From IMG/VR virus record IMGVR_UViG_3300032665_000132, positions 1 to 31,403 of that record: DNA of 31,403 bases; one strand, given 5' to 3'. Source of the DNA: a virus. The translations under genes and the position numbers were made by a program. Under the pieces are notes generated by a model, which was given only the letters and a program-made list of their open reading frames with translations, had not been told where the DNA came from and made no database searches. Position 1 is the stretch's first letter, and the number at the start of each line of letters is the position of its first letter. Shown piece after piece: positions 3,511 to 22,680 of this stretch.

Positions 3511-3716
3511 GTGTCCTTAGCTCAGTTGGATAGAGCAACAACTAAAAAATTTAGTTATTCTATCTAGTTTAGAAGAAATAAAACAGTTTGCTCTTATGGT
3601 GAAATAGGATATCACACGGGTCTTCTAAACCCAGATTCTAGGTTCGAGTCCTAGTGAGAGCGCCAACCTATCTTCTAAGCTGTGGGCCGGTGGTTCGAAT
3701 CCCCTACGGGATACCA
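3511..3716 (+). pseudogene. Interrupted tRNA-Arg(UCU) relic
   Basis: The 5' end (3511-3542) has a tRNA acceptor/D-arm signature, CTTAGCTCAGTTGGATAGAG. The matching 3' half (about 3670-3716) has an anticodon-like CTTCTAA, a T-loop TTCGAAT and a terminal CCA. Between them lies about 130 bp, including a complete tRNA-Arg of the same anticodon. The acceptor strands pair poorly (GTCCT against ACGGGAT) and the T-stem has a mismatch, so the split copy looks decayed. The insert starts with a hairpin AACTAAA/TTTAGTT. Confidence 0.6.
3590..3665 (+). tRNA. tRNA-Arg (anticodon UCU)
   Basis: The acceptor GCTCTTA pairs with TGAGAGC, followed by G and an encoded CCA. The D-stem GTGA/TCAC and the anticodon loop CTTCTAA give anticodon TCT, reading AGA. 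The T-arm TAGG-TTCGAGT-CCTA is canonical. It lies inside the interrupted tRNA-Arg relic of the same specificity. An extra AGA reader would suit this AT-rich genome. Confidence 0.85.
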
Positions 3717-3742
3717 ACTTAAACTTATGTGGAGAATACAAT

Positions 3743-3964
3743 ATGAATAAGCCTGCTACTGATCGTGTGTTTGCTCTTTTGGAACGTGGACAATCCTTGA
3801 CGGCCGAACAAATTTCAAACCGTTTTAATGTAAGTAACCCATATCATGTTGTATATTCATTGCGAAATCGTGGTCTAAATATTATTACTACACCTCATAC
3901 TATTCGTGGTAAGACGGTATCTAAGTATAGTTATATTGCGCCACGATCTAGGAAGAAGATGTAA
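3743..3964 (+). CDS. Small winged-helix-like DNA-binding protein (73 aa)
   Basis: The protein begins MNKPATDRVFALLERGQSLT after GGAGAATACAAT. Residues 8-45 (LLERGQSLTAEQISNRF, then NVSNPYHVVYSLRNRG) fit a helix-turn-helix with a recognition helix. A wing-like strand pair follows (LNIITTPHTIRGKTVSKYSY) and the tail is basic (PRSRKKM). Proteins of this pattern are common in T4-like phages near tRNA genes. It could bind DNA as a small regulator; no target is known. The next tRNA starts 10 bases after its stop. Confidence 0.6.
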   Translation: MNKPATDRVFALLERGQSLTAEQISNRFNVSNPYHVVYSLRNRGLNIITTPHTIRGKTVSKYSYIAPRSRKKM

Positions 3965-3973
3965 AACAAGTTT

Positions 3974-4048
3974 TCGGGTGTAGCTCAGTGGTAGAGCAAT
4001 CGGCTGTTAACCGATCGGTCGTAAGTTCGAATCTTACCACCCGAGCCA
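3974..4048 (+). tRNA. tRNA-Asn (anticodon GUU)
   Basis: The acceptor TCGGGTG pairs perfectly with CACCCGA, followed by G and CCA. The D-arm is GCTC...GAGC. The anticodon stem ATCGG/CCGAT encloses CTGTTAA, giving GTT. The T-arm is GTAAG-TTCGAAT-CTTAC. All arms are intact. Confidence 0.93.
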
Positions 4049-4206
4049 GTTTGCCGGATTAGTAACAAGCGGTTCCTAGGTCTGCTTGGGTCTGTACCGG
4101 TAGAGGATCCCGACACCTCTATAAAAACGCGGAGGTTTGCCCCTCAAGGGGAATAACCGGTCACTCCGGTTCGAGCTGGGCGATCTCGTGAAACTGCCCT
4201 AGCCAG
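4049..4206 (+). ncRNA. Structured non-tRNA segment in the tRNA cluster
   Basis: This stretch between tRNA-Asn and tRNA-Thr folds by eye into successive hairpins. TAGAGG (4101) pairs with CCTCTA (4116). CCCC-TCAA-GGGG lies at 4140-4151. ACCGG-TCACT-CCGGT lies at 4156-4170. GGGC (4178) pairs with GCCC (4196), and CTAGG near 4076 can pair with CCTAG near 4198. It is bounded by a direct repeat CCAGTTTGCCGGATTAG at 4046 and 4203, the second copy being the start of tRNA-Thr. It has CCA at its 3' end but no tRNA fold. T4 makes stable RNAs C and D from its tRNA region; this may be comparable, but no homology is shown. Confidence 0.5.
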
Positions 4207-4209
4207 TTT

Positions 4210-4284
4210 GCCGGATTAGCACAGTGGTAGTGCAGCGGTTTTGTAAACCGAAGGTCGGGAGTTCAAATCTCTCATCCGGCACCA
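4210..4284 (+). tRNA. tRNA-Thr (anticodon UGU)
   Basis: The acceptor GCCGGAT pairs with ATCCGGC, then A and CCA. The D-arm is GCAC...GTGC. The anticodon arm is GCGGT-TTTGTAA-ACCGA, giving TGT and reading ACA. The T-arm is GGGAG-TTCAAAT-CTCTC. The first bases are also present in the direct repeat before the structured segment upstream. Confidence 0.92.
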
Positions 4285-4291
4285 AATTGTT

Positions 4292-4378
4292 GGGGATGCG
4301 GCACAGTTGGAGAGGTGCGGCAGACTGTAAATCTGTTCCTTAATTGGTGAGTTAGTTCGAATCTGACGATCCCCACCA
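4292..4378 (+). tRNA. tRNA-Tyr (anticodon GUA)
   Basis: The acceptor GGGGATG pairs with GATCCCC (one mismatch at the base), then A and CCA. The anticodon arm CAGA-CTGTAAA-TCTG gives GTA. A long variable arm (about 15 bases) precedes the T-arm GTTAG-TTCGAAT-CTGAC, as expected of a bacterial class II tRNA-Tyr. Confidence 0.9.
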
Positions 4379-4389
4379 AATAAGTTTGA

Positions 4390-4466
4390 TCTAGATACGA
4401 TTGGGAAGTCTCTGGTCGTCGCGATGCTAGACAACATTCAGGCCAAGTCGTGCGGCCTAGTTTTAT
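4390..4466 (+). ncRNA. Structured spacer between tRNA-Tyr and tRNA-Ser
   Basis: TCTAG (4390-4394) can pair with CTAGA (4427-4431), and AGGCC (4440) pairs with GGCCT (4454-4458), followed by AGTTTTAT. The second hairpin may act as a processing signal or weak terminator within the tRNA transcript. No tRNA fold is visible. It may be a stable RNA or only a structured spacer. Confidence 0.3.
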
Positions 4467-4472
4467 AATAAA

Positions 4473-4564
4473 GGAAGTGTGACCGAGAGGCCTATGGTAG
4501 CGGTTTGCTAAACCGCCGAACTCTACTAGGGGTTCCGAGGGTTCGAATCCCTCCTCTTCCGCCA
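4473..4564 (+). tRNA. tRNA-Ser (anticodon GCU)
   Basis: The acceptor GGAAGTG pairs with CTCTTCC (one mismatch), followed by G and CCA. The anticodon arm GCGGT-TTGCTAA-ACCGC gives GCT. A long variable arm and a perfect T-arm GAGGG-TTCGAAT-CCCTC complete a class II tRNA-Ser. Confidence 0.92.
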
Positions 4565-4569
4565 ATTAT

Positions 4570-4646
4570 CAGGGAATAGCTCAATCTGGCAGAGCATTGC
4601 GTTTGGGACGCAAAGGTTGCAAGTTCAATTCTTGCTTCCCTGACCA
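4570..4646 (+). tRNA. tRNA-Pro (anticodon UGG)
   Basis: The acceptor CAGGGAA pairs with TTCCCTG, then A and CCA. The D-arm is GCTC...GAGC. The anticodon arm TTGCG-TTTGGGA-CGCAA gives TGG, reading CCA. The T-arm is GCAAG-TTCAATT-CTTGC. It is the last tRNA gene in the cluster. Confidence 0.93.
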
Positions 4647-13635: not shown

Positions 13636-13643
13636 TATAAATA
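13636..13643 (+). promoter_or_regulatory. T4-type late promoter
   Basis: This is an exact TATAAATA octamer, the T4 late promoter core recognised by a gp55-like sigma factor. It lies downstream of an AT-only palindrome (13607-13622) and just upstream of a structured segment and terminator, with no protein gene between. This suggests it drives a small RNA. Confidence 0.7.
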
Positions 13644-13649
13644 AATTCA

Positions 13650-13790
13650 CATGAGCATACATTATGCGCTTCATGAAGCGTAAGAGGCACAGAGACTATA
13701 ATAGCAAAGGAACAGTCGGGGATCATAGGTGGGGTTCCTCCCGGCATTGTATGCTTTTAAAGAAGGTCGGCTCGAAAGGGTCGACCTTTC
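13650..13790 (+). ncRNA. Structured late RNA candidate
   Basis: About 140 bases between a late promoter and a terminator fold strongly by eye. AGCATACA (13654-13661) pairs perfectly with TGTATGCT (13748-13755), closing a domain of roughly 100 bases. Inside are a perfect hairpin CGCTTCATGAAGCG and a stem GTCGGG/CCCGGC with inner AGG/CCT. An alternative local hairpin GCATA-CAT-TATGC overlaps the closing strand, so two folds compete. A short reading frame crosses it but looks unconvincing. The function is unknown. Confidence 0.6.
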
Positions 13791-13795
13791 TTTTT
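13763..13795 (+). terminator. Rho-independent terminator before the late operon
   Basis: AAGGTCG (13763-13769) pairs with CGACCTT (13782-13788), followed by TTCTTTTT. The T run merges directly into the next TATAAATA late promoter, so an upstream transcript ends where the next starts. Confidence 0.88.
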
Positions 13796-13802
13796 ATAAA
13801 TA
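13795..13802 (+). promoter_or_regulatory. T4-type late promoter of the head-protein operon
   Basis: This exact TATAAATA lies 36 bases before the ATG at 13838. It directly follows a terminator, so transcription of the operon beginning at 13838 can be controlled independently of the replication block. Confidence 0.82.
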
Positions 13803-13837: not shown

Positions 13838-14605
13838 ATGCTAACATTCTCTAAATTAAAAAATATTCTTTCTGAAGAATTGACACCAGATCAAAGAGAG
13901 CATTTTAATTCAATTAAAAGAGATCCTAATGCAGTTGCAGCAACTGCTCATTTTTTTGGCAAAGGTAATGATGTTGTATCAAAAGAACTTGAAGCTTATT
14001 TTGAAGAATCAGTGCAAAAAACTGCTCATTTTTTTGATGTTGACGAGACACTATTTGCACATGATCCGAAAAAATTAAGAATCCATGTTCGTGATTCAAA
14101 TGGCAATATTGTAAAAAGTTTGTCTAATCAACAATTTAATAAAAATAAATTAAATCCGGGTGAACGATACGATTTCAAGGATTTTAAATCATCTAAGAAA
14201 TTTGCAAGCACTGCTAAACCAATTCCAAAAATGATCAATTTATTAAATAGATTGAAAAATTCTGGTCATAATACTTCAATACTTACTGCTCGATCAGATC
14301 TTGATGATAAGCAAAAATTTGCTCATACGATGAAAAAATATGGTATAGATATATCTAAAACACATGTATACAGAGCAGGGAATGTTGAAGGTACTTCTAC
14401 AGGTGATAGAAAAAGAAAAGTATTATCAGATCTTATAAAGAAACATGGTTATAATGAAATTCATCTTTATGATGATGATTTGGGGAATCATGAACATTTT
14501 GCTAAACTCAAAGAAGATCATCCAGGTGTTAGACTATATTCACATATAGTTACACATAATGATCACACAGGCCAAACAACAATTAAAACTATCAGACATC
14601 AATAG
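13838..14605 (+). CDS. HAD-superfamily phosphatase with capsid-targeting-like N-terminus
   Basis: The 255-residue protein starts MLTFSKLKNILSEEL, resembling the T4 internal-protein capsid-targeting peptide (IPIII begins MKTYQEFIAEA). The HAD sites are FFDVDETLF (D67 nucleophile, D69), NTSILTARSD (motif II Thr) and IHLYDDDLGNHEH (acidic motif III/IV). TAHFF occurs twice, at about 36 and 62. This fits a phosphatase acting on a small molecule or a nucleic-acid end, as in the 3'-phosphatase domain of T4 Pnkp, but the substrate is unknown. It is the first gene after a late promoter. If cleaved by a gp21-like protease after Glu 13 or 14, it would be delivered with the DNA. Confidence 0.8.
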   Translation: MLTFSKLKNILSEELTPDQREHFNSIKRDPNAVAATAHFFGKGNDVVSKELEAYFEESVQKTAHFFDVDETLFAHDPKKLRIHVRDSNGNIVKSLSNQQFNKNKLNPGERYDFKDFKSSKKFASTAKPIPKMINLLNRLKNSGHNTSILTARSDLDDKQKFAHTMKKYGIDISKTHVYRAGNVEGTSTGDRKRKVLSDLIKKHGYNEIHLYDDDLGNHEHFAKLKEDHPGVRLYSHIVTHNDHTGQTTIKTIRHQ

Positions 14606-14618
14606 GGATTGAAAATAG

Positions 14619-15614
14619 ATGTTAAAATTTACTGAATTTCAAATCATTGCAGAATCTAAAATGACGGCTTCTGGTTTTGTAGGCAATCGTCATTTTGAAA
14701 AATATGTAAAACCATATTTGTCCGGAGCTGCTAAGCATTCAAAGCAAGGCACACATATTATGGCCTCAAAACATGATGATTTAAATGTAGGTGAACAAGT
14801 AACATTACATTCTCATCATATTGATGATAAAGGTGTCCATCATGTAACAGTAAGTCGACCTGGCTCAAGAAAAAAAATTACTGTGCCTATTTCAAAGTTA
14901 GATAAGCCTGGGGCCCAAACAGAAAATGAAGGCCATAAGTATGAAAAACATTTTTTTAATAGATGTAGAAATATAGGTCTTGTACCTCCCGGCCATAATC
15001 CTGCAGGTTCTACAGCTGGAACAGATGTCCCATTTTTAAATAAAAAGAAAGGAACAATTCATAAAGGCCGGGCTATATATAATGGTGAAGTAAAGCTAAA
15101 CGAAACCGCGGCACTTGGACAAGGTACAATTAAATTTGGAAAACATCCTAAAACAGGTAAGGTGGGATGGCATATTCCCGATGAATTACGAGATGCAAGA
15201 CCAGAATATGCTAAAGCAATAGAAGAAAGAGGTATTTTAGAATATATGAATAAACATCATCCGGATCCGGATGCAGTTGAAACTACTGCTTCAGGTAGAG
15301 CAAGAAGCATTACAATGCCACACCCGGATTTATCACCAGCTGAAGCGTATTTGAAAGATCATGATGCTGATGTTGTTCACATAGGTGAAGGTCATGGAAC
15401 ATATAGAGTAGGAAGTAAAGATAAAACTGGTTTTGGACTCCCAAGATTAAAAGGAAAAGGAAAATGGACCATTCGTCAAAAGCAAGAAGGTAATAAAAGA
15501 TCCAGAACTGTTATGTTTCAAATTCATGGAAAACACGGTTTAATTAGAAGTCCTATAAATTTAGATCGTGATGACCATTTACAAGATTTTGCAAAACATT
15601 TAGGACATTCATAA
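14619..15614 (+). CDS. Putative PD-(D/E)xK nuclease with capsid-targeting-like N-terminus
   Basis: The 331-residue protein starts MLKFTEFQIIAESK, which fits the capsid-targeting pattern. A nuclease-like core is suggested by EGHKYEKHFFNRC (Glu104/Glu109 helix), TAGTDVPFL (D136) and YNGEVKLNE (E157 and K159), the order and spacing of a PD-(D/E)xK fold. The remainder is His/Gly/Lys-rich and basic, suiting DNA binding. No methyltransferase is nearby. It could cut host DNA or process phage DNA. It is co-transcribed with the HAD gene. The fold call is moderate. Confidence 0.6.
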   Translation: MLKFTEFQIIAESKMTASGFVGNRHFEKYVKPYLSGAAKHSKQGTHIMASKHDDLNVGEQVTLHSHHIDDKGVHHVTVSRPGSRKKITVPISKLDKPGAQTENEGHKYEKHFFNRCRNIGLVPPGHNPAGSTAGTDVPFLNKKKGTIHKGRAIYNGEVKLNETAALGQGTIKFGKHPKTGKVGWHIPDELRDARPEYAKAIEERGILEYMNKHHPDPDAVETTASGRARSITMPHPDLSPAEAYLKDHDADVVHIGEGHGTYRVGSKDKTGFGLPRLKGKGKWTIRQKQEGNKRSRTVMFQIHGKHGLIRSPINLDRDDHLQDFAKHLGHS

Positions 15615-15615
15615 A

Positions 15616-16845
15616 ATGTTAACATTTAGAAATTTTCTTATAGAGAATGAAGAATCTGCTACAGGTAAACCTCTCACTCATCTTCGTCATCTAGAAGATA
15701 ATATTCTTTATGATGGTCATGAAGGTGTAAGAAGAGCATCAAAATTTTTAGATGATGCGCACAATCATCTTCTTGGGAAAGAAACATCAACTCATATTTC
15801 AACAAAATATGATGGTGCTCCAAGTATAGTATATGGAACACATCCAGAAACTGGAAAATTCTTTGTAGCTTCCAAATCTGCTTTTAATAAAAATCCAAAA
15901 ATCAATTATACAAATGAAGATATTGAACGAAACCATGGTCATGCCCCAGGTTTGGTGTCAAAACTCAAAGAAGCACTATATCATCTTCCAAAAATTATGC
16001 CAAAGACTGGTGGTGTTTTTCAAGGTGATATGATGCATGGAAAGGGTGATATTAAGAAAAATGGTGGAAAGATTAGTTTTACTCCAAATACAATTACATA
16101 TTCTACTGATAAAAATTCTGCTGAAGGAAGAAAAGTAACAAATTCAAAAATCGGTGTTGTAATGCATACAGAATATAAAGGTAAAGGGCCTTTACAGAAT
16201 ATGTCGGCAACACCTTTGAGTGCCAAAAGAAGAGCTGAATTCATAGATCATCCGGATGTTAATAATATTGATCCTACTCAAAAGGTGAATACAAACAATT
16301 ATACTCCAGAAGAACAAAAGAAATTTGCTATGCATAAAGAAGCAATTAGAAAAACATATCAGAGTATGAAGCCTGAAGCATTTGAGGCAATTCATGGTCA
16401 TGAAGCGGCTTTGGAATCTCATGTAAATGATCAAGTACGAAAAGGTGGTAAACCTTCTACTGAAGGTTATATGAATTTCCTAAAAGATCGACATGAAAAG
16501 GAAATTTCTAAACTTAAAACACAAGCAGCGATTGATAGAAAGAAACAAGATTTCTCTAAGAAATTAGATCACGTGAATGCCAACAAAGAACATTTCAAGA
16601 AAATACTTGATCTTCATCATCATTTCCAAGAAGCCAAAAATATTCTTACTGGTGTAATGGCCAAAAATAGTAAGTTTGAGAATAGCATCAATGGAAAACC
16701 TACTTTACCTGAAGGTGCTGTTGCGGTTGATAAAGAAGGTAATATGACCAAGTTTGTAAATCGTGGTGAAGGTGGGTTTGCTCAGGCCAATTTGACTGGT
16801 TCTGGTGCATTTCAGAAGAAAGGGACTTCTGATGCTTCTAAGTAG
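15616..16845 (+). CDS. Ligase-like nucleotidyltransferase (DUF6267-like), head-targeted
   Basis: The 409-residue protein starts MLTFRNFLIENEES, another capsid-targeting-like peptide. STKYDGAPS (K64, D66, G67) matches the KxDG active site of ATP-dependent RNA/DNA ligases. In the expected order follow GGVFQGDMM (motif III-like, 132-140), KIGVVMHTEYKG (IIIa-like), and near the C-terminus PEGAVAV (IV-like EGxV) and TKFVNRGE (V-like). A His/Lys-rich helical insert of about 150 residues separates IIIa from IV. I recall this protein type as a T4-like phage family of unknown function (DUF6267). Ligase activity is inference. It overlaps the next gene by 14 bases. Confidence 0.7.
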   Translation: MLTFRNFLIENEESATGKPLTHLRHLEDNILYDGHEGVRRASKFLDDAHNHLLGKETSTHISTKYDGAPSIVYGTHPETGKFFVASKSAFNKNPKINYTNEDIERNHGHAPGLVSKLKEALYHLPKIMPKTGGVFQGDMMHGKGDIKKNGGKISFTPNTITYSTDKNSAEGRKVTNSKIGVVMHTEYKGKGPLQNMSATPLSAKRRAEFIDHPDVNNIDPTQKVNTNNYTPEEQKKFAMHKEAIRKTYQSMKPEAFEAIHGHEAALESHVNDQVRKGGKPSTEGYMNFLKDRHEKEISKLKTQAAIDRKKQDFSKKLDHVNANKEHFKKILDLHHHFQEAKNILTGVMAKNSKFENSINGKPTLPEGAVAVDKEGNMTKFVNRGEGGFAQANLTGSGAFQKKGTSDASK

Positions 16846-17470
16846 AATTAAAAGGATCATTTTTGAATCATATGAAAAGCATCATGTAACTGCTCCTTCC
16901 GTCCGATTCCAACCTCCTACGGAAGGTCATGGAGAAGTTATTGATACAGTAAAGAGTGAAGCAAAAAAAGTTGGTGGTAGTCATTCAATAGTACTATCAC
17001 ATTCTCATGATGCTAAAAATCCACTCACACCTGAACAAAAACTCAAACATGCCAAAAGAGCATGGCCAGATATGAATATATCTACATCATCTGTTGAACA
17101 ACCAACTTTGCTTCATCATCTTGCAAATCTTCACAAACAAGGTGTAACACATGTAACTGTTGTTGGTGGTCAAGATAGAGTGGAAGGATTCCGGAATCTC
17201 ATACACAAGTATAATGGACAAACTGGTGCCCATGGCTATTATAATTTTAAAGGGATCAATGTTGTATCGGCAGGTGAAAGAGATCCAGACGCGGAAGATG
17301 TAACAGGTATTTCCGGAACCAAAATGAGAGCCGCGGCAGAAAGGGGTGATAAAGAAACATTTCATGCTGGAGCACCATCAAATATGACACCAGATCAAAA
17401 AGATGAAATGATGAGAGATGTTCAGAATGGTATGAAAAAGTTTGAAAAGAAAAAAATAAGTAAAAAATAG
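16832..17470 (+). CDS. TxGH nucleotidylyltransferase-like protein, head-targeted
   Basis: The start is ATG 16832 after AAAGGGACTTCTG (MLLSRIKRIIFESYEK), again like a capsid-targeting peptide. The enzyme body shows VRFQPPTEGHGEVI (T30-x-G-H33, the HxGH-type site). THVTVVGGQDRVEGF and TGISGTKMRAAAERGD (the SxTxxR-type site) follow. These define the nucleotidylyltransferase superfamily of NMN and phosphopantetheine adenylyltransferases. The substrate cannot be read from the sequence; NMN is one possibility. The 212-residue length fits a single domain with a basic tail. It overlaps the ligase-like gene. Confidence 0.75.
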   Translation: MLLSRIKRIIFESYEKHHVTAPSVRFQPPTEGHGEVIDTVKSEAKKVGGSHSIVLSHSHDAKNPLTPEQKLKHAKRAWPDMNISTSSVEQPTLLHHLANLHKQGVTHVTVVGGQDRVEGFRNLIHKYNGQTGAHGYYNFKGINVVSAGERDPDAEDVTGISGTKMRAAAERGDKETFHAGAPSNMTPDQKDEMMRDVQNGMKKFEKKKISKK

Positions 17471-17477
17471 GGGAAAG

Positions 17478-18059
17478 ATGATGACGGAAGAAAGAAAAGG
17501 CCTTTGGTATAATATTCATGCAAAACGTGAACGTATTAAACATGGATCTGGGGAACATATGAGAAAACCAGGCTCCAAGGGTGCACCTACACAAGCCGAT
17601 TTTAAAAATTCACAAACAGAAGAAACAAAAAAACCAGAAACTTCTGATCATGCTCATGCATCTTCAAAGCATATTAAAACACCTCAGGATAGTGAAAAAC
17701 AATCTGTAAATTCATCTGATGCAGATTCAAGATTTGACGGTTCAACATCTCTTGCAAATACTTATAAATCAGAAACACCTGGTCAAATCGTCAAAAGAGT
17801 AGTTAAAGAAGCACTTTATCACGGGAAAGAAGTTCCCCTAAATAAGCCGATGAAAGGCGACGTTAAAAAGTCTAAGGTATATGTCAAAGATCCTGAAACT
17901 GGTAACGTCAAAAAAGTGAACTTTGGTGATAAACATCTCAGTATTAAGAAGGATATTCCTGCTCGGAAACGATCATATTGTGCTAGATCATCTGGACAAG
18001 GAAATTTAACAAAGAAAACAAGTGCTAACTATTGGTCGAGAAGGGCATGGAATTGTTAA
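17478..18059 (+). CDS. Late protein with two small conserved phage domains (193 aa)
   Basis: The N-terminal domain KGLWYNIHAKRERIKHGSGE followed by HMRKPGSKGAPT is a short module I recall from many phages and some large viruses (DUF5872-like). A Ser/Thr/Lys-rich linker covers residues 40-110. The C-terminal module KVYVKDPETGNVKKVNFGD with KRSYCARSSGQGNLTKKTSA and YWSRRAWNC is Cys/Arg-rich and also widespread in viruses. It contains VKRVVKEALYHGKE. Both modules look suited to nucleic-acid or zinc binding. The function is unknown. ATGATG at 17478 follows AGGGGAAAG; the second ATG is equally possible. Confidence 0.7.
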   Translation: MMTEERKGLWYNIHAKRERIKHGSGEHMRKPGSKGAPTQADFKNSQTEETKKPETSDHAHASSKHIKTPQDSEKQSVNSSDADSRFDGSTSLANTYKSETPGQIVKRVVKEALYHGKEVPLNKPMKGDVKKSKVYVKDPETGNVKKVNFGDKHLSIKKDIPARKRSYCARSSGQGNLTKKTSANYWSRRAWNC

Positions 18060-18208
18060 AATTCAAAGAGTTTATTACTGAACTCAAAGTTAGAGAAGCT
18101 GATGGCACCGAAATGATTATTCATAAAGTGCCTATTCGTATGGCCGATGGTAAAATTAAGAAGATGTATCCGGGTAAAAGCGGTAGTTCCGGAGGTGGAG
18201 GAAAATAA
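18047..18208 (+). CDS. Small head-targeted peptide (53 aa)
   Basis: The ATG at 18047 overlaps the preceding gene by 13 bases. The N-terminus MELLKFKEFITELK closely fits the capsid-targeting pattern and a protease site after ITE. The body contains GTEMIIHKVPIRMADGKIKK and a Gly/Ser-rich tail (GKSGSSGGGGK). It is likely a minor internal head peptide. Confidence 0.65.
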   Translation: MELLKFKEFITELKVREADGTEMIIHKVPIRMADGKIKKMYPGKSGSSGGGGK

Positions 18209-18230
18209 TAACTCAATAAAGGAGCATCTC

Positions 18231-18437
18231 ATGCTAAAGGGTATTTGGAAAAAAATTACAAATATGCTTGGGTGTGATGAGACTAGACTAATTGAAAATG
18301 AACCTCCAATAATAATTCAAAAGAAAAAAATAATAAATAGACCAGAGATACATATGATAAGTAAAGAACAGTTTATGCAAGAACTTGATGAATATGTAAA
18401 CCATTTACATGAACTCAAACACAAGGGACGGAAATAA
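18231..18437 (+). CDS. Small basic unknown protein (68 aa)
   Basis: The start ATG 18231 follows AAAGGAGCATCTC. It begins MLKGIWKKITNMLGCDETRL, has a basic middle (IIIQKKKIINRPEIHMISKE) and a C-terminal helix EQFMQELDEYVNHLHELKHK. No domain is recognised. It lies one base before the next gene. Confidence 0.6.
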   Translation: MLKGIWKKITNMLGCDETRLIENEPPIIIQKKKIINRPEIHMISKEQFMQELDEYVNHLHELKHKGRK

Positions 18438-18438
18438 A

Positions 18439-18621
18439 ATGGAAGTATTATACTTAGTATTAGGTGCATTGGGCGCTTGTGTGGTATATTATATGATTCG
18501 TGAATTAATTGAAAATAAGCAAACAGTGACAAAGATTGAAGAAACTGCAGTTGCAACTGCCAAGAAGGATATTGCAACTGCAGCAAATACCGTAACAACA
18601 GACGTTAAGAAGATTGTATAA
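18439..18621 (+). CDS. Single-span membrane protein (60 aa)
   Basis: MEVLYLVLGALGACVVYYMI forms one N-terminal transmembrane helix (residues 2-20). A Lys/Thr/Ala-rich amphipathic helix with TAVATAKKDIATAANTVTTD follows. The topology would leave the tail in the cytoplasm or periplasm depending on insertion. No family is recognised. Confidence 0.6.
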   Translation: MEVLYLVLGALGACVVYYMIRELIENKQTVTKIEETAVATAKKDIATAANTVTTDVKKIV

Positions 18622-18624
18622 TCT

Positions 18625-19062
18625 ATGAATGAATTAATTGAAAAGATGAAAGTTGTGCTAGCTAGCACATTTGCTTTCTATCTAAAGAGTCATGGGTTTC
18701 ATTGGAATGTTGAGGGAGTATATTTCCCTCAACTCCATTCCTTTTTTGAAACAATTTATACTGATGCATGGAAAGCAGTTGATAAAATTGCAGAAGAAAT
18801 TCGTACGTTAGATGCATATGCTCCTGGCAGTCTTTCAAGACTTCTTCAGTTGAGTGTTGTTGAAGATCAGATTAATATTCCTACAGCATTAAAAATGGTC
18901 AAAGAACTTGAAATTAATAATAATGCTTTAATCAATGAGCTTAGAACTGCTCAAAAATTAGCAGAAAAAACTGATTGTGTAGGCCTAGCAAATTTCCTCC
19001 AAGACAGGATCGACAAGCACCATAAGCATGCTTGGATGCTCCGGTCAATCACAAAGAGTTAA
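18625..19062 (+). CDS. Dps-like ferritin-family protein
   Basis: Dps proteins form 12-subunit shells that oxidise and store iron and often shield DNA. The 145-residue protein carries the family blocks KSHGFHWNVEGVYFPQLHSF and FETIYTDAWKAVDKIAEEIR, including the paired His and the acidic ferroxidase residues, then LDAYAPGSLSRLLQLS. Length and helix pattern fit one Dps subunit. There is no long basic tail, so DNA binding is not assured. It is embedded in the late operon and starts 4 bases after the previous stop. It may protect phage DNA or limit iron-driven oxidation. Confidence 0.9.
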   Translation: MNELIEKMKVVLASTFAFYLKSHGFHWNVEGVYFPQLHSFFETIYTDAWKAVDKIAEEIRTLDAYAPGSLSRLLQLSVVEDQINIPTALKMVKELEINNNALINELRTAQKLAEKTDCVGLANFLQDRIDKHHKHAWMLRSITKS

Positions 19063-19066
19063 AAAA

Positions 19067-20524
19067 ATGGAAAAATATAGATCACTAGAAAACGTTATTC
19101 GGGCTGTTGTAAAAGAAAGTGCTACTGGTTATTCCCACATGAAAGGGAATGTAACAGGCACAGATATTGGCAGTCCTATCCAGCAAGGTCCTGGTAGACC
19201 AATTGGCAGACTTCAGCATTTATCAAATATCCGTGTGCAAAATAAAGATGATGCTGCAAGAAATGCTTCTCAGAATGCAAAGAAACAACGTGAAGATACT
19301 ATTGCCGATAGAAAACATGCTGAAAAAATTCGGAAACATACTGGCAAAGTATATGCGGAAGAAGAAAAAGAAACTGATTCAGTTCCAGAAGGTACTGAAA
19401 AACGTAGAAAAGTTGAGAATGTTGCACGAGAGAATTCAGCAGAACCAACTTCAGAAAAATCAACTCTTGGAAGAAATGCAAGTATTGTATCAAAAGTTTT
19501 AGAGGAGAAACAAGCCGTGTTTTCAGATAATAAATTTGGTCTACCTACTTCAGTCATTGAAACTACCCGAGCAATTTTGGAAAAGACCATGGAATCTCAT
19601 CCTGGTGATCCAAAGAAGATTACTGCTGGTGGTAAGACTGATGTAAAGATTGAACCTTCTTTAAAGCAGTTAACTGCTAATGAAGAAGTTAAAAAGGATA
19701 ATAAGGACATTGATGGTGAGGAAAGTGGATCTGAAGAGGAAGAAAAGGAAAAATCAAAAGTAAATAAAGAAAAAAATGAACAGAAAAAGATGGCGGAAGA
19801 TGTAAACTTTTCTGATGATGAACTTGAAACACTTGAAGAATTAGCTGCTTCACTTGGTTTAAATGAAGCACCATATGGTTCAAGTGATGGCAAGCAATCA
19901 TATAACACAAATGATCAAGGCGGTTCCAGAGGACTTGGACCGACAACATCTGGTTATCTTCAGGAAAAATGCAAGAAGTGCAAAAAGAAAATGTGCACTT
20001 GCGGAATGAAAGAGGAATTATCACCAAAGCAGAAGAAAATTGCTGCACTAGCTGGTAATCCTAAGAAGATTGATGCTGAAGATTTTAAAGAACTTCGCGC
20101 ACACGGTATGAAGGAAAGCAATGAAAAAAGTTTAGAAGTTCATAACACACAAGAACATCCTGGTCGTGCAAAGGAAATTGAAAAGATTATAAAGGGTGCT
20201 ACAAAGAAAATTTTTGGTGAAGAATCAGTATTAGATGAAGGTCGCGGTCGACCACGAAAGAATCCTATTGAAAAGCCAGAAGATGATGATACGGAAGCAA
20301 ATTCTAATGTAATCAATAGAATTCGTCAAGCCCGTAATTCTATGGCTGGTGGTGCTAAAACAACACTAAAACACGAGAACGGTGAAGAAACAGTGTTGAC
20401 ACCTGATGTTGCTCGTATGCTTGATAATGCACATAATGTCAAAAGAACGCCCGCGGAAAAGGAAGCATTTGTTTCAGCTATTCGCGCTAGTCGTGCATCA
20501 ATGCTTAAAGCAATGGGTCACTAA
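19067..20524 (+). CDS. Large charged head-associated protein with AT-hook and Cys cluster
   Basis: The 485-residue protein starts MEKYRSLENVIRAVVKES, a helical leader that may be a capsid-targeting variant. It is low-complexity and charged, with a Glu/Lys run around residues 215-250. It has a cysteine cluster EKCKKCKKKMCTCGMKEE at about 307-324, followed by LSPKQKKIAALAGNPKKIDA. DEGRGRPRKNPIEKP is a textbook AT-hook that binds the minor groove of AT-rich DNA. The end is helical. A role as an internal DNA-binding head or scaffold protein is inference. It starts five bases after the dps stop. Confidence 0.6.
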   Translation: MEKYRSLENVIRAVVKESATGYSHMKGNVTGTDIGSPIQQGPGRPIGRLQHLSNIRVQNKDDAARNASQNAKKQREDTIADRKHAEKIRKHTGKVYAEEEKETDSVPEGTEKRRKVENVARENSAEPTSEKSTLGRNASIVSKVLEEKQAVFSDNKFGLPTSVIETTRAILEKTMESHPGDPKKITAGGKTDVKIEPSLKQLTANEEVKKDNKDIDGEESGSEEEEKEKSKVNKEKNEQKKMAEDVNFSDDELETLEELAASLGLNEAPYGSSDGKQSYNTNDQGGSRGLGPTTSGYLQEKCKKCKKKMCTCGMKEELSPKQKKIAALAGNPKKIDAEDFKELRAHGMKESNEKSLEVHNTQEHPGRAKEIEKIIKGATKKIFGEESVLDEGRGRPRKNPIEKPEDDDTEANSNVINRIRQARNSMAGGAKTTLKHENGEETVLTPDVARMLDNAHNVKRTPAEKEAFVSAIRASRASMLKAMGH

Positions 20525-20532
20525 TCACTTTT

Positions 20533-20540
20533 AATAAATA
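20533..20540 (+). promoter_or_regulatory. Probable late promoter before structural genes
   Basis: AATAAATA is one base from TATAAATA, 28 bases before the ATG at 20568, immediately after the preceding stop codon. The position suits a late promoter for the virion proteins. Confidence 0.5.
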
Positions 20541-20567
20541 ATAAAAAGATTCTTTAGGAGAACAAAA

Positions 20568-21560
20568 ATGCAGTGGGGACAAAACGATCAGGCAGTTACT
20601 GCCAATTCTTCAACTACAAAAGAAAGTTCAGTTGGTGCTCCAATTGGTACTTATGCTCTAGCAAAGGGCTCGGGGAATGGTATCAATCCAGTATCAATGG
20701 ATGCAAATGCTCATTTTGGCAATACATCACCAGGTTCACGTGCAAACGTAGATTATAATATGTTTGGCAATACAACTGTAGGTGCATTTATCAATAATAT
20801 GGCCGTTGGGGTTTTTGGTGTAAATGCAACAATGCTAAGCACATCAGGTGGTGGCATTGTTCTTGGTTATGTAACATTTGGTGGTTCTGGTTATCAGGCT
20901 AATGCTACTGCTACTTTGACCGTAACAAATGGTGGATCTTCAGGTGTTGTGAATGCTCATGCTAATACAACAGGGAATGCCGGTCGTATTGATTCTTTAT
21001 TACCTCAGACTGCTGGCGCTGGTTATATCACTGCACCAACAGTTGCTATTGCTGCTCCTGCTGCAATTCAGATTGGCGCCAATTCAACATATATCAATGC
21101 TTCAGCTAATACAATTCTTCTAGCTTCTGCTAATTCTTATTGGCAGGCAAATGATAGATTCTACTATGCTGTTGCTGCTGGAAATACAGCAATCGTTGGT
21201 CTAACTGCAAACACATATTATTATATTTCATTCGTGAATGCCTCTTCTCTTGCAGTTTCTGCTGCACCAGGTGGTGCTAATCTTCTACTAACGGCAAATG
21301 CTTCCTCAACTGAACATGCTGGTCATACAATCCAGGGTGATACAGCCACAGGTTATGTTGATGTTGGTTCTGTATATCCTCAGGCTACACATTCGGGTTG
21401 GGTAGTTCGTAGAGAAGGTACCGGTGGCAGAACAGGTCGTGTTACATATGAAACATTGGTTGCTATGGGTTCACTAGGTGTGAATGGTGTTACAACTACT
21501 GGTGTATATGGAACAGCAAATATTACTCAGTCCAATTCAGCAGTTGATCCAATCGCGTAA
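20568..21560 (+). CDS. Virion structural protein, fibre- or decoration-like
   Basis: The 330-residue protein starts MQWGQNDQAVTANSSTTKES, a start I recall from marine T4-like phage virion proteins. It is rich in Ala, Gly, Asn, Thr and Ser with many short beta-type repeats (FGGSGYQANATATLTVTNGG, GAGYITAPTVAI). The C-terminal block SGWVVRREGTGGRTGRVTYE is a conserved terminus in such proteins. There is no signal peptide or catalytic site. A head or tail surface protein is most likely. AGGAG precedes the ATG. Confidence 0.75.
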   Translation: MQWGQNDQAVTANSSTTKESSVGAPIGTYALAKGSGNGINPVSMDANAHFGNTSPGSRANVDYNMFGNTTVGAFINNMAVGVFGVNATMLSTSGGGIVLGYVTFGGSGYQANATATLTVTNGGSSGVVNAHANTTGNAGRIDSLLPQTAGAGYITAPTVAIAAPAAIQIGANSTYINASANTILLASANSYWQANDRFYYAVAAGNTAIVGLTANTYYYISFVNASSLAVSAAPGGANLLLTANASSTEHAGHTIQGDTATGYVDVGSVYPQATHSGWVVRREGTGGRTGRVTYETLVAMGSLGVNGVTTTGVYGTANITQSNSAVDPIA

Positions 21561-21579
21561 TTAAACGAAAGTCGATATT

Positions 21580-21873
21580 ATGGCTAATGATGCTAAAAAG
21601 ATTAGTGATTTAGTTGTTGCTAACACGATGGCTCTTACTGATAGAGTTGTCGTGTTAGTAAACGCTAACACAACTGCAAATGTTCAAACAATCACACTTC
21701 AAAATTTTGCAAATGTTCTAATTTCAACACAAAATGTATCTACATTTTCAGCAACTGTTCCTTCCAATTCCTCATCGACTGGTGTGAAGGGACAGTTTGC
21801 ATATGATGCAACACATTTTTATGTTTGTATTGCAAACAATTCATGGATTAGAACAACGATGAGTACTTTCTAA
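21580..21873 (+). CDS. Small virion/tail-fibre-type protein (97 aa)
   Basis: It begins MANDAKKISDLVVANTMALT and ends GVKGQFAYDATHFYVCIANN then SWIRTTMSTF. That last block, G-x-x-G-x-F-A-Y-D-x-x-x-x-Y-V-C-x-x-x-x-W, is a recurrent end module in phage fibre and virion proteins. It is likely a structural partner of the preceding gene. Confidence 0.65.
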   Translation: MANDAKKISDLVVANTMALTDRVVVLVNANTTANVQTITLQNFANVLISTQNVSTFSATVPSNSSSTGVKGQFAYDATHFYVCIANNSWIRTTMSTF

Positions 21874-21874
21874 T

Positions 21875-22120
21875 ATGAAAACACGTATCAACTTTAGATA
21901 TGCTATTCAGACCGCGTTTACCGGTTCAAATGACATGTCTGTTGATATTATTCGTGTTTTGACTACATTATCATTTTTTGTATTTTTTACATTGGAAGTT
22001 TATAAGGTTATGGTTATGCAAAAGGATTTCAACCCGATGGAATTTGCTGCCGCGTGTGGTACTATGTTCACCACTGCCGGTGCTTCACTTTTAATTAAAT
22101 CAAAGACCGAACCGCAATAA
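21875..22120 (+). CDS. Holin candidate, two TM helices (81 aa)
   Basis: The 81-residue protein has a basic N-terminus (MKTRINFRYAIQTAF) and two hydrophobic helices, about residues 23-46 and 55-75. They are separated by QKDFNPMEFA, and the tail is short and charged (KSKTEPQ). Phage holins of this shape, with an NPxxFA-type loop before helix 2, occur in T4-like relatives. It starts one base after a structural gene. It could release the GH19 endolysin; pore formation is not provable here. Confidence 0.55.
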   Translation: MKTRINFRYAIQTAFTGSNDMSVDIIRVLTTLSFFVFFTLEVYKVMVMQKDFNPMEFAAACGTMFTTAGASLLIKSKTEPQ

Positions 22121-22130
22121 AGATAGTAGT

Positions 22131-22532
22131 TTGACTAAATTTGAATTTTTAACTGATAGTAATTTTTTACTATATTGTGCAAAATATTATGATAATCCGC
22201 ATTGTGAATCTACCGAAGAGTTTATGGAAGATTTAAACAAGATAAGATATATCAAAAAACTTATCTTTAAGTATAAAGAATGTGGTGAACTGAAAGAACG
22301 ATTGATTCTAAATCATATTATATTGTTACGGAATGTGTTTAGAAATCACACGGTCAGAATTTTATATTTAAAATTAAAAAATGAATTTGAATATGTGAAA
22401 CCTTTTTTGGTATTACTTGATGCACTTCCTGATGTCATATATAATATCGGTGATGAAACTATAATTTATACAGATGTTATACCTATGGATTCTGGAATAA
22501 TCAAAGCACTGAGGTTAAGTATCAATGAATAA
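22131..22532 (+). CDS. Conserved T4-like phage protein of unknown function (133 aa)
   Basis: The likely start is TTG at 22131 (MTKFEFLTDSNFLLYCAKYY); no ATG lies earlier in frame. Recognisable blocks are DNPHCESTEEFMEDLNKIRY, CGELKERLILNHIILLRNVF and EYVKPFLVLLDALPDVIYNI. I recall this pattern from many T4-like phages next to structural genes, but no function is established to my knowledge. It overlaps the next small gene by 8 bases. Confidence 0.7.
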   Translation: MTKFEFLTDSNFLLYCAKYYDNPHCESTEEFMEDLNKIRYIKKLIFKYKECGELKERLILNHIILLRNVFRNHTVRILYLKLKNEFEYVKPFLVLLDALPDVIYNIGDETIIYTDVIPMDSGIIKALRLSINE

Positions 22533-22680
22533 TCTTTTATCTTTTTTGGATTTTATTGCTGAGACAGAATCGGCAGTTCCAACAAATGCTGTAGGCGCTT
22601 CTGGAATGGGCTCCACATCAGCAGGACCAATTCAAGGTTATGATCCTTTGCTTAAAAATAAGAAAAAGAAACCTTCATAG
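22525..22680 (+). CDS. Small head-targeted peptide (51 aa)
   Basis: The ATG at 22525 overlaps the previous stop by 8 bases. The N-terminus MNNLLSFLDFIAETES fits the capsid-targeting pattern with a protease site after IAE. The body NAVGASGMGSTSAGPIQGYD is Gly/Ser-rich and resembles short peptides of T4-like heads. The tail is Lys-rich. It is likely an internal head peptide. Confidence 0.65.
   Translation: MNNLLSFLDFIAETESAVPTNAVGASGMGSTSAGPIQGYDPLLKNKKKKPS

Follow-up and report, generated by a model that had tools for sequence, protein, structure and literature searches.

The window analysed here is a 31.4 kb IMG/VR virus record (IMGVR_UViG_3300032665_000132, all 31,403 nucleotides) with T4-type replication genes, and the subject is a gene cluster at 13838-22680 whose products begin with short peptides resembling the capsid-targeting tag of T4 internal proteins. 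The virus is T4-like, from aquatic bacteria. The tagged cluster lies between the genes for the gp41 helicase and the gp61 primase, and related genes occupy the same gp41-gp61 position in cyanophages Syn1 and S-SM1 and in Methylophilales phage Melnitz-3. All seven open reading frames (ORFs) named in a first-pass annotation are present in the window with the N-termini given there. Six of them, each called here by its start coordinate, form the core of this report:

13838..14605, + strand: HAD phosphatase-like protein, 255 amino acids; diverged tag MLTFSKLKNILSE at 13838-13876
14619..15614, + strand: possible PD-(D/E)XK nuclease, 331 amino acids; tag MLKFTEFQIIAE at 14619-14654
15616..16845, + strand: DUF6267 protein, 409 amino acids; tag MLTFRNFLIE at 15616-15645, in exact T4 register
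16832..17470, + strand: HxGH nucleotidyltransferase (cytidylyltransferase/NMNAT-like), 212 amino acids; degenerate tag MLLSRIKRIIFE at 16832-16867
18047..18208, + strand: 53 amino acid peptide; tag MELLKFKEFITE at 18047-18082, then a basic Gly-rich tail
22525..22680, + strand: 51 amino acid peptide; tag MNNLLSFLDFIAE at 22525-22563, then a stretch like the gp23 N-arm

Motif profile. A profile of nine columns was trained only on 34 distinct DUF6267 N-terminal peptides (relatives of 15616) and then run over 1111 proteins from other families in the same loci, with the expectation taken from internal stretches of those proteins. N-termini scoring at least 12 numbered 24 against 0.19 expected, and those scoring at least 8 numbered 38 against 1.7. 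DUF6267 patterns had served to gather the loci, and one pattern overlaps the 15616 tag. Tests in other families are unaffected by this; 15616 is itself a training sequence, and its own score is not independent. We also defined an exact T4 register (F/Y4, F/Y7, I/L/V/M8, E10), which occurs in 72 of 1326 non-redundant proteins (0.1 expected) and in none of 5567 internal Met-started stretches, and is spread over 13 unrelated cargo families. The N-terminal motif is genuine and lies well beyond chance expectation. Codons for residues 4, 7, 8 and 10 vary mostly at the third position; the conservation therefore acts on the peptide, and a DNA- or RNA-level leader is ruled out as its cause.

Within the window the tag is clear in 15616 (profile score 24.7), 18047 (17.0) and 22525 (15.9), the last two having the same motif as 15616 shifted 2-3 residues inward; tagged relatives of 18047 are L026_8125, L027_10637 and L107_7548. 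It is diverged yet readable in 13838 (6.6), where an insert precedes the ILSE end, and in 14619 (0.4), where MLKFTEFQIIAE retains F4 and F7 with two additional residues ahead of the E. Orthologues of 13838 in L007, L010, L011 and L077 bear clear tags, and those of 14619 in L005, L107, L108 and L109 are tagged as well. The aromatics are missing from MLLSRIKRIIFE of 16832 (-3.8), whose tag is convincing only because its orthologues bear textbook ones (MKKFKDFIVEE, MINFIKFLSE, MKRFKNFITE). The first-pass annotation had assigned the motif to these six products and perhaps to 19067; the latter assignment was dropped, since 19067 scores -9.0 and N-termini of its family carry an LExxIR motif instead. 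A further candidate, 22131 (9.1), was rejected as a conserved DUF7207 N-terminus outside the Glu register.

Likeness to T4. T4 and its coliphage relatives are already known to use such a tag. The first ten residues of T4 IPIII suffice for packaging, with residues 4 and 7 governing targeting and residues 8 and 10 governing processing (PMC9026906), and the four conserved columns of our motif are these same experimentally defined positions. Applied blind to the 211 genes of T4, the aquatic-phage profile ranked IPII second, IPIII third and IPI sixth. The likeness to the T4 tag proposed in the first-pass annotation is thereby borne out. What is shared with the IPI/IPII/IPIII targeting sequence (Mullaney and Black 1996, via PMC9026906) is a 10-residue N-terminal peptide with aromatics at 4 and 7, an aliphatic residue at 8 and Glu at 10, and also the unrelated cargo behind one tag, the late genes and, in relatives, a gp21-type protease. 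The system here differs in that its cargo is mostly enzymatic and sits in a single operon beside replication genes, some tags have small insertions, residue 11 is often acidic, and the hosts are aquatic bacteria. The window record stops short of the head genes, so that it shows neither the protease nor the scaffold nor the major capsid protein of the phage. All relatives searched (the large records G001 and G002; Melnitz-3, Syn1 and S-SM1) have a gp21-type (S77) protease, and the gp23 cleavage sites of two large related records (TLTE↓T and LLSE↓A) take the form seen at the ends of the tags, as does that of T4 gp23 (FLTE↓A). We consider it highly probable that these N-terminal peptides serve as T4-type capsid-targeting sequences, by which the products of an enzyme operon are packed in the head as cargo and delivered to the next host.

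Late promoters. Upstream of the cluster lie the following elements:

13636..13643, + strand: T4-type late promoter element TATAAATA, the upstream one of a pair
13654..13790, + strand: structured small RNA candidate with an intrinsic terminator (13762-13789), between the two late promoters
13795..13802, + strand: late promoter element TATAAATA, 43 nt ahead of the first tagged start codon

The paired promoter arrangement is also found in L002, L004, L005, L007, L011, L043 and L107. At many loci TATAAATA late promoters stand 27-47 nt ahead of the first tagged gene, and the density of TATAAATA within 400 bp upstream is 1.83 per kb versus a background of 0.23. A 12-pair terminator precedes the 13795 promoter and sets the cluster apart from the replication genes. 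Because the cluster sits behind T4-type late promoters, its products would be made during head assembly. This timing bears on the idea that the peptide is a docking or assembly helix for some other complex of the infected cell, such as the replisome or an enzyme assembly, and not a head signal. Such a helix would suit a cluster lying between gp41 and gp61, cargo that acts on nucleotides, and orthologues of which some are untagged. Late promoters, the exact match to the functional positions of T4, the blind recovery of T4 internal proteins and the occurrence of tagged enzymes in purified virions all argue against it, and we regard it as quite improbable.

Virion proteomes. The virion data are a re-reading of published tables and a small sample. 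Purified virions of S-SM1 yielded an orthologue of 16832, T4-GC190 (PMC3037559), whose N-terminus is MKKFSAFLNEA. The NMNAT of S-SCSM1, likewise detected in virions (PMC9602691), begins with MKSFLQFLKEA. In the virion protein list of S-CREM2 (PMC10665884, Table 3) the exact tag occurs within the first 14 residues of 3/52 virion proteins versus 0/177 others (Fisher p 0.011), and all four non-lysis virion enzymes are tagged. The peptides of these four enzymes, and that of one further virion protein (ORF13), are:

SAM hydrolase, enzyme: MKDFDSFLEEF
Kinase, enzyme: MKRFDAFLTEE
Cytidylyltransferase, enzyme: MKNFSSFLTEA
Protein annotated as Cas9 nuclease (OR473000 7704-10313), enzyme: LRFASFMAEA at residues 17-26
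ORF13, virion protein: MKDLHSFLTEQ

Thus the cytidylyltransferase/NMNAT, SAM hydrolase and kinase found in virions of S-SM1, S-SCSM1 and S-CREM2 are tagged, and the nucleotidyltransferase among them is the orthologue of 16832. The three papers report virion detection with unclear status and, in the portions available to us, mention no packaging signal; the main text of the S-CREM1 proteome lists no cytidylyltransferase. These enzymes could be abundant contaminants from late infection, with a peptide unrelated to packaging, a possibility raised by the authors on S-CREM2 (as carry-over) and on S-SCSM1 (PMC10665884, PMC9602691). A shared packaging tag argues against contamination as their source, since it is present on all four S-CREM2 non-lysis virion enzymes and, in the first 14 residues, on none of the 177 non-virion proteins; we give contamination hardly any credence. 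Targeting to the capsid is strongly supported. The cyanophage proteome authors could not tell whether virion enzymes were cargo or contamination, and the tag offers both a mechanism and a sequence test.

The S-CREM2 protein annotated as Cas9 has an HNH-like stretch by eye, and may be an injected protein of HNH type instead of Cas9. Outside the cluster, G001 53694-54410 (L087) has the exact-register tag MKPFYSYLEE and 51% identity to S-CREM2 ORF156, a virion-detected protein whose start differs from that of the tagged G001 protein.

A portable tag. In the predicted DUF6267 model residues 1-21, which include the tag, are disordered and stand apart from the folded domain. In fused DUF6267-nucleotidyltransferase proteins the N-terminal tag is the only one, the junction having none, and where the two are split, in the clade of the window, each has a tag of its own. 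An uncultured phage (L109) has six consecutive tagged genes. Further tagged cargo includes a RimK-type ATP-grasp protein (Melnitz-3) and HEAT-repeat and DUF6321 proteins. One of the tagged proteins, L010 4151-5884 (577 amino acids), has HEAT repeats and an N-terminal domain outside any identified family, and is the first gene in the tagged cluster of that phage. It was tried as an ADP-ribosyltransferase and rejected, since Pfam gives HEAT repeats only; the tagged proteins that were scanned included no member of an ADP-ribosyltransferase family.

Cargo enzymes. The first-pass annotation also took the cargo for enzymatic, which has good support for 13838, 15616 and 16832, is a motif-level guess for 14619, and fails for 18047 and 22525, which are short peptides and not enzymes. 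The 13838 protein matches Pfam Acid_phosphat_B (2.3e-8) and PHROG 415, polynucleotide kinase (1.4e-10), and by sequence is a putative HAD phosphatase weakly similar to the phosphatase domains of polynucleotide kinases; a PDB sequence search with it gave no match. The 16832 protein matches PF01467 above cut-off, PHROG 3041 (8.7e-56) and PHROG 395, and its TEGH and ISGTKMR are the (H/T)xGH and ISxTxxR motifs of an NMNAT-like HxGH nucleotidyltransferase; its orthologues are named NMNAT-like in the literature.

15616 is a clear member of DUF6267 (PF19782, 8.6e-89; PHROG 455), a family with no recorded function. In an alignment of 24 sequences that takes in untagged cyanophage members, K64, D66, G67, Q136, D138, H184, T185, E366, G367 and K379 are invariant. 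The resulting motifs KxDG, QxD, HT, EG and K are arranged like those of a covalent nucleotidyltransferase (motif I KxDG, III, IV and V). The predicted structure has a pLDDT (predicted local distance difference test score) of 87, below 50 for residues 1-21 and above 85 for the domain. All of its top six PDB fold matches are DNA or RNA ligases, each of them weak (E 0.07-0.44), and a PDB sequence search gave nothing credible. From the invariant motifs and the weak fold matches, DUF6267 is predicted to be a ligase-like covalent nucleotidyltransferase.

For 14619 there is no family match in Pfam or PHROG. It has a PD-(D/E)XK-like D...EVK pattern (GTDVPF...GEVKLN...GQG), kept in 6/7 aligned sequences, the six nearest. 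Its structure model is poor and gave no match in a fold search, and 'nuclease' is therefore a guess: the protein is a possible PD-(D/E)XK nuclease.

These enzymes bear on a reading in which the tagged proteins are packaged as scaffold-core or structural parts that stay in the head, or leave it before maturation, and are never delivered. T4 core proteins are indeed packaged and then mostly degraded (PMC9026906), and two of the tagged products, 18047 and 22525, are short peptides, the second of them similar to the gp23 N-arm. The DUF6267 active-site motifs, invariant over 24 sequences, would be needless for filler, and orthologues persist in mature purified virions; we judge a purely structural role unlikely.

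The gp23 N-arm-like stretch, corresponding to the region after the gp23 cleavage site, occurs at 22525-22680 of the window, in S-CREM2 ORF160, at S-SM1 152805-153353 and at G002 L095 1420-1950. Each such stretch tracks the gp23 of its own phage (S-CREM2 gp23 GFTGAAAPGGPNAGFDPVM versus ORF160 GFTGAAAPEGPVAGYDPLM), and ORF160 was detected in virions. The stretch may be a mimic, seating the protein against the inner wall of the capsid.

Proposed mechanism. Under capsid targeting with delivery, late transcription would make the tagged proteins present while heads assemble, and aromatic residues 4 and 7 would dock each of them into the prohead core. A gp21-type protease would then cut after the Glu of [LI]xE, a gp23-like site, freeing the cargo within the head, where it would be packed with the DNA and enter the next host upon infection; we infer this processing and delivery largely from T4. 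T4 Alt and the internal proteins are delivered from the head, and the latter block restriction enzymes (PMC9026906 among sources). Alt, an encapsidated mono-ADP-ribosyltransferase, is a further likeness as an enzyme packaged with DNA and injected, injection being conjectural here. By analogy with T4, the kit is probably active within minutes of the start of infection. A phosphatase, a ligase-like enzyme, an NAD/nucleotide enzyme and a possible nuclease might repair or protect incoming nucleic acid; alternatively, they might restore NAD or nucleotide pools against host defence. Any biochemical role is speculative for this phage.

Several points weigh against this proposal. The window phage is uncultured and has no proteome, its record has no capsid genes, and a processed N-terminus has not been seen for any tagged protein. 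T4 Alt was missed, its propeptide MELITELFDE being unrecognised by the profile. Residue 11 is Glu in 21/65 distinct tags, versus Ala after the IPII and IPIII tags of T4. Two high scorers are evident false positives (a 2OG oxygenase in S-SM1 and a gp46-like protein in S-CREM2). The DUF6267 proteins of cyanophages Syn1 and S-SM1 are untagged, and one freshwater clade has a tagged DUF6267 protein but an untagged HAD protein and an untagged separate nucleotidyltransferase; because some orthologues are untagged, these enzymes can exist without packaging. The S-CREM2 counts are small, and carry-over was considered possible by its authors, as noted above.

More broadly, aquatic T4-like phages may load a modular kit of injected enzymes by a T4-type tag, acting before any phage gene expression, with cargo swapped by gain or loss of the 10-residue tag. 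Its contents would comprise ligase-like, phosphatase, NAD/nucleotide-handling, nuclease, SAM hydrolase, kinase and ATP-grasp proteins. We put this forward tentatively, giving it somewhat less than an even chance; if true, the tag alone would flag injected effectors of uncultured phages from sequence.

In the open-text literature capsid targeting was paired with cyanophages only in a T4 review, and no paper found there mentions DUF6267. Apparently new are the occurrence of the tag across the Kyanoviridae and related uncultured phages, its presence on the products of an enzyme operon, and its agreement with virion proteomes. The T4 capsid-targeting code would thus extend to these phages, the tag predicting which proteins of uncultured phages travel with the DNA and opening the widespread DUF6267 family directly to functional experiments.

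Leader RNA. The small RNA candidate between the promoters has a core of about 100-110 nt plus the terminator, and is kept in L002, L004-L007, L009-L018, L024-L030, L039, L043, L066, L107 and others. An alignment of 16 sequences supports three helices, in which 84% of cells are paired and double changes number 41; no shuffle out of 500 reached this level, and slid controls gave 37-43%. The invariant segments, GGAA and one like GGTGGGGTTCC, are candidates for a pseudoknot. An Rfam search with the RNA found no family, and the core pattern was found in 69 viral contig stretches. It looks like an undescribed late phage RNA, and is part of the leader of the cluster, not of the protein mechanism.

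Other genes. The remaining features of the cluster and its surroundings are:

17478..18059, + strand: untagged neighbour, 193 amino acids; PHROG 16028 and 7595 (two phage domains with no assigned function); score -9.2
18625..19062, + strand: Dps/ferritin-like protein, untagged; PF00210 1.2e-22; score -8.8
19067..20524, + strand: low-complexity protein, 485 amino acids; tag claim unsupported
8379: DNA polymerase gp43, T4-type replication gene
10927: UvsX, T4-type replication gene
11987: gp41 helicase, T4-type replication gene
23203: gp61 primase, T4-type replication gene

The Dps/ferritin-like gene is an untagged conserved neighbour in most related loci, and its product, a DNA-binding protein of the late cluster, might enter the head by another route. 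Six tRNA genes (Arg, Asn, Thr, Tyr, Ser and Pro) are clustered at 3590-4646 of the window.

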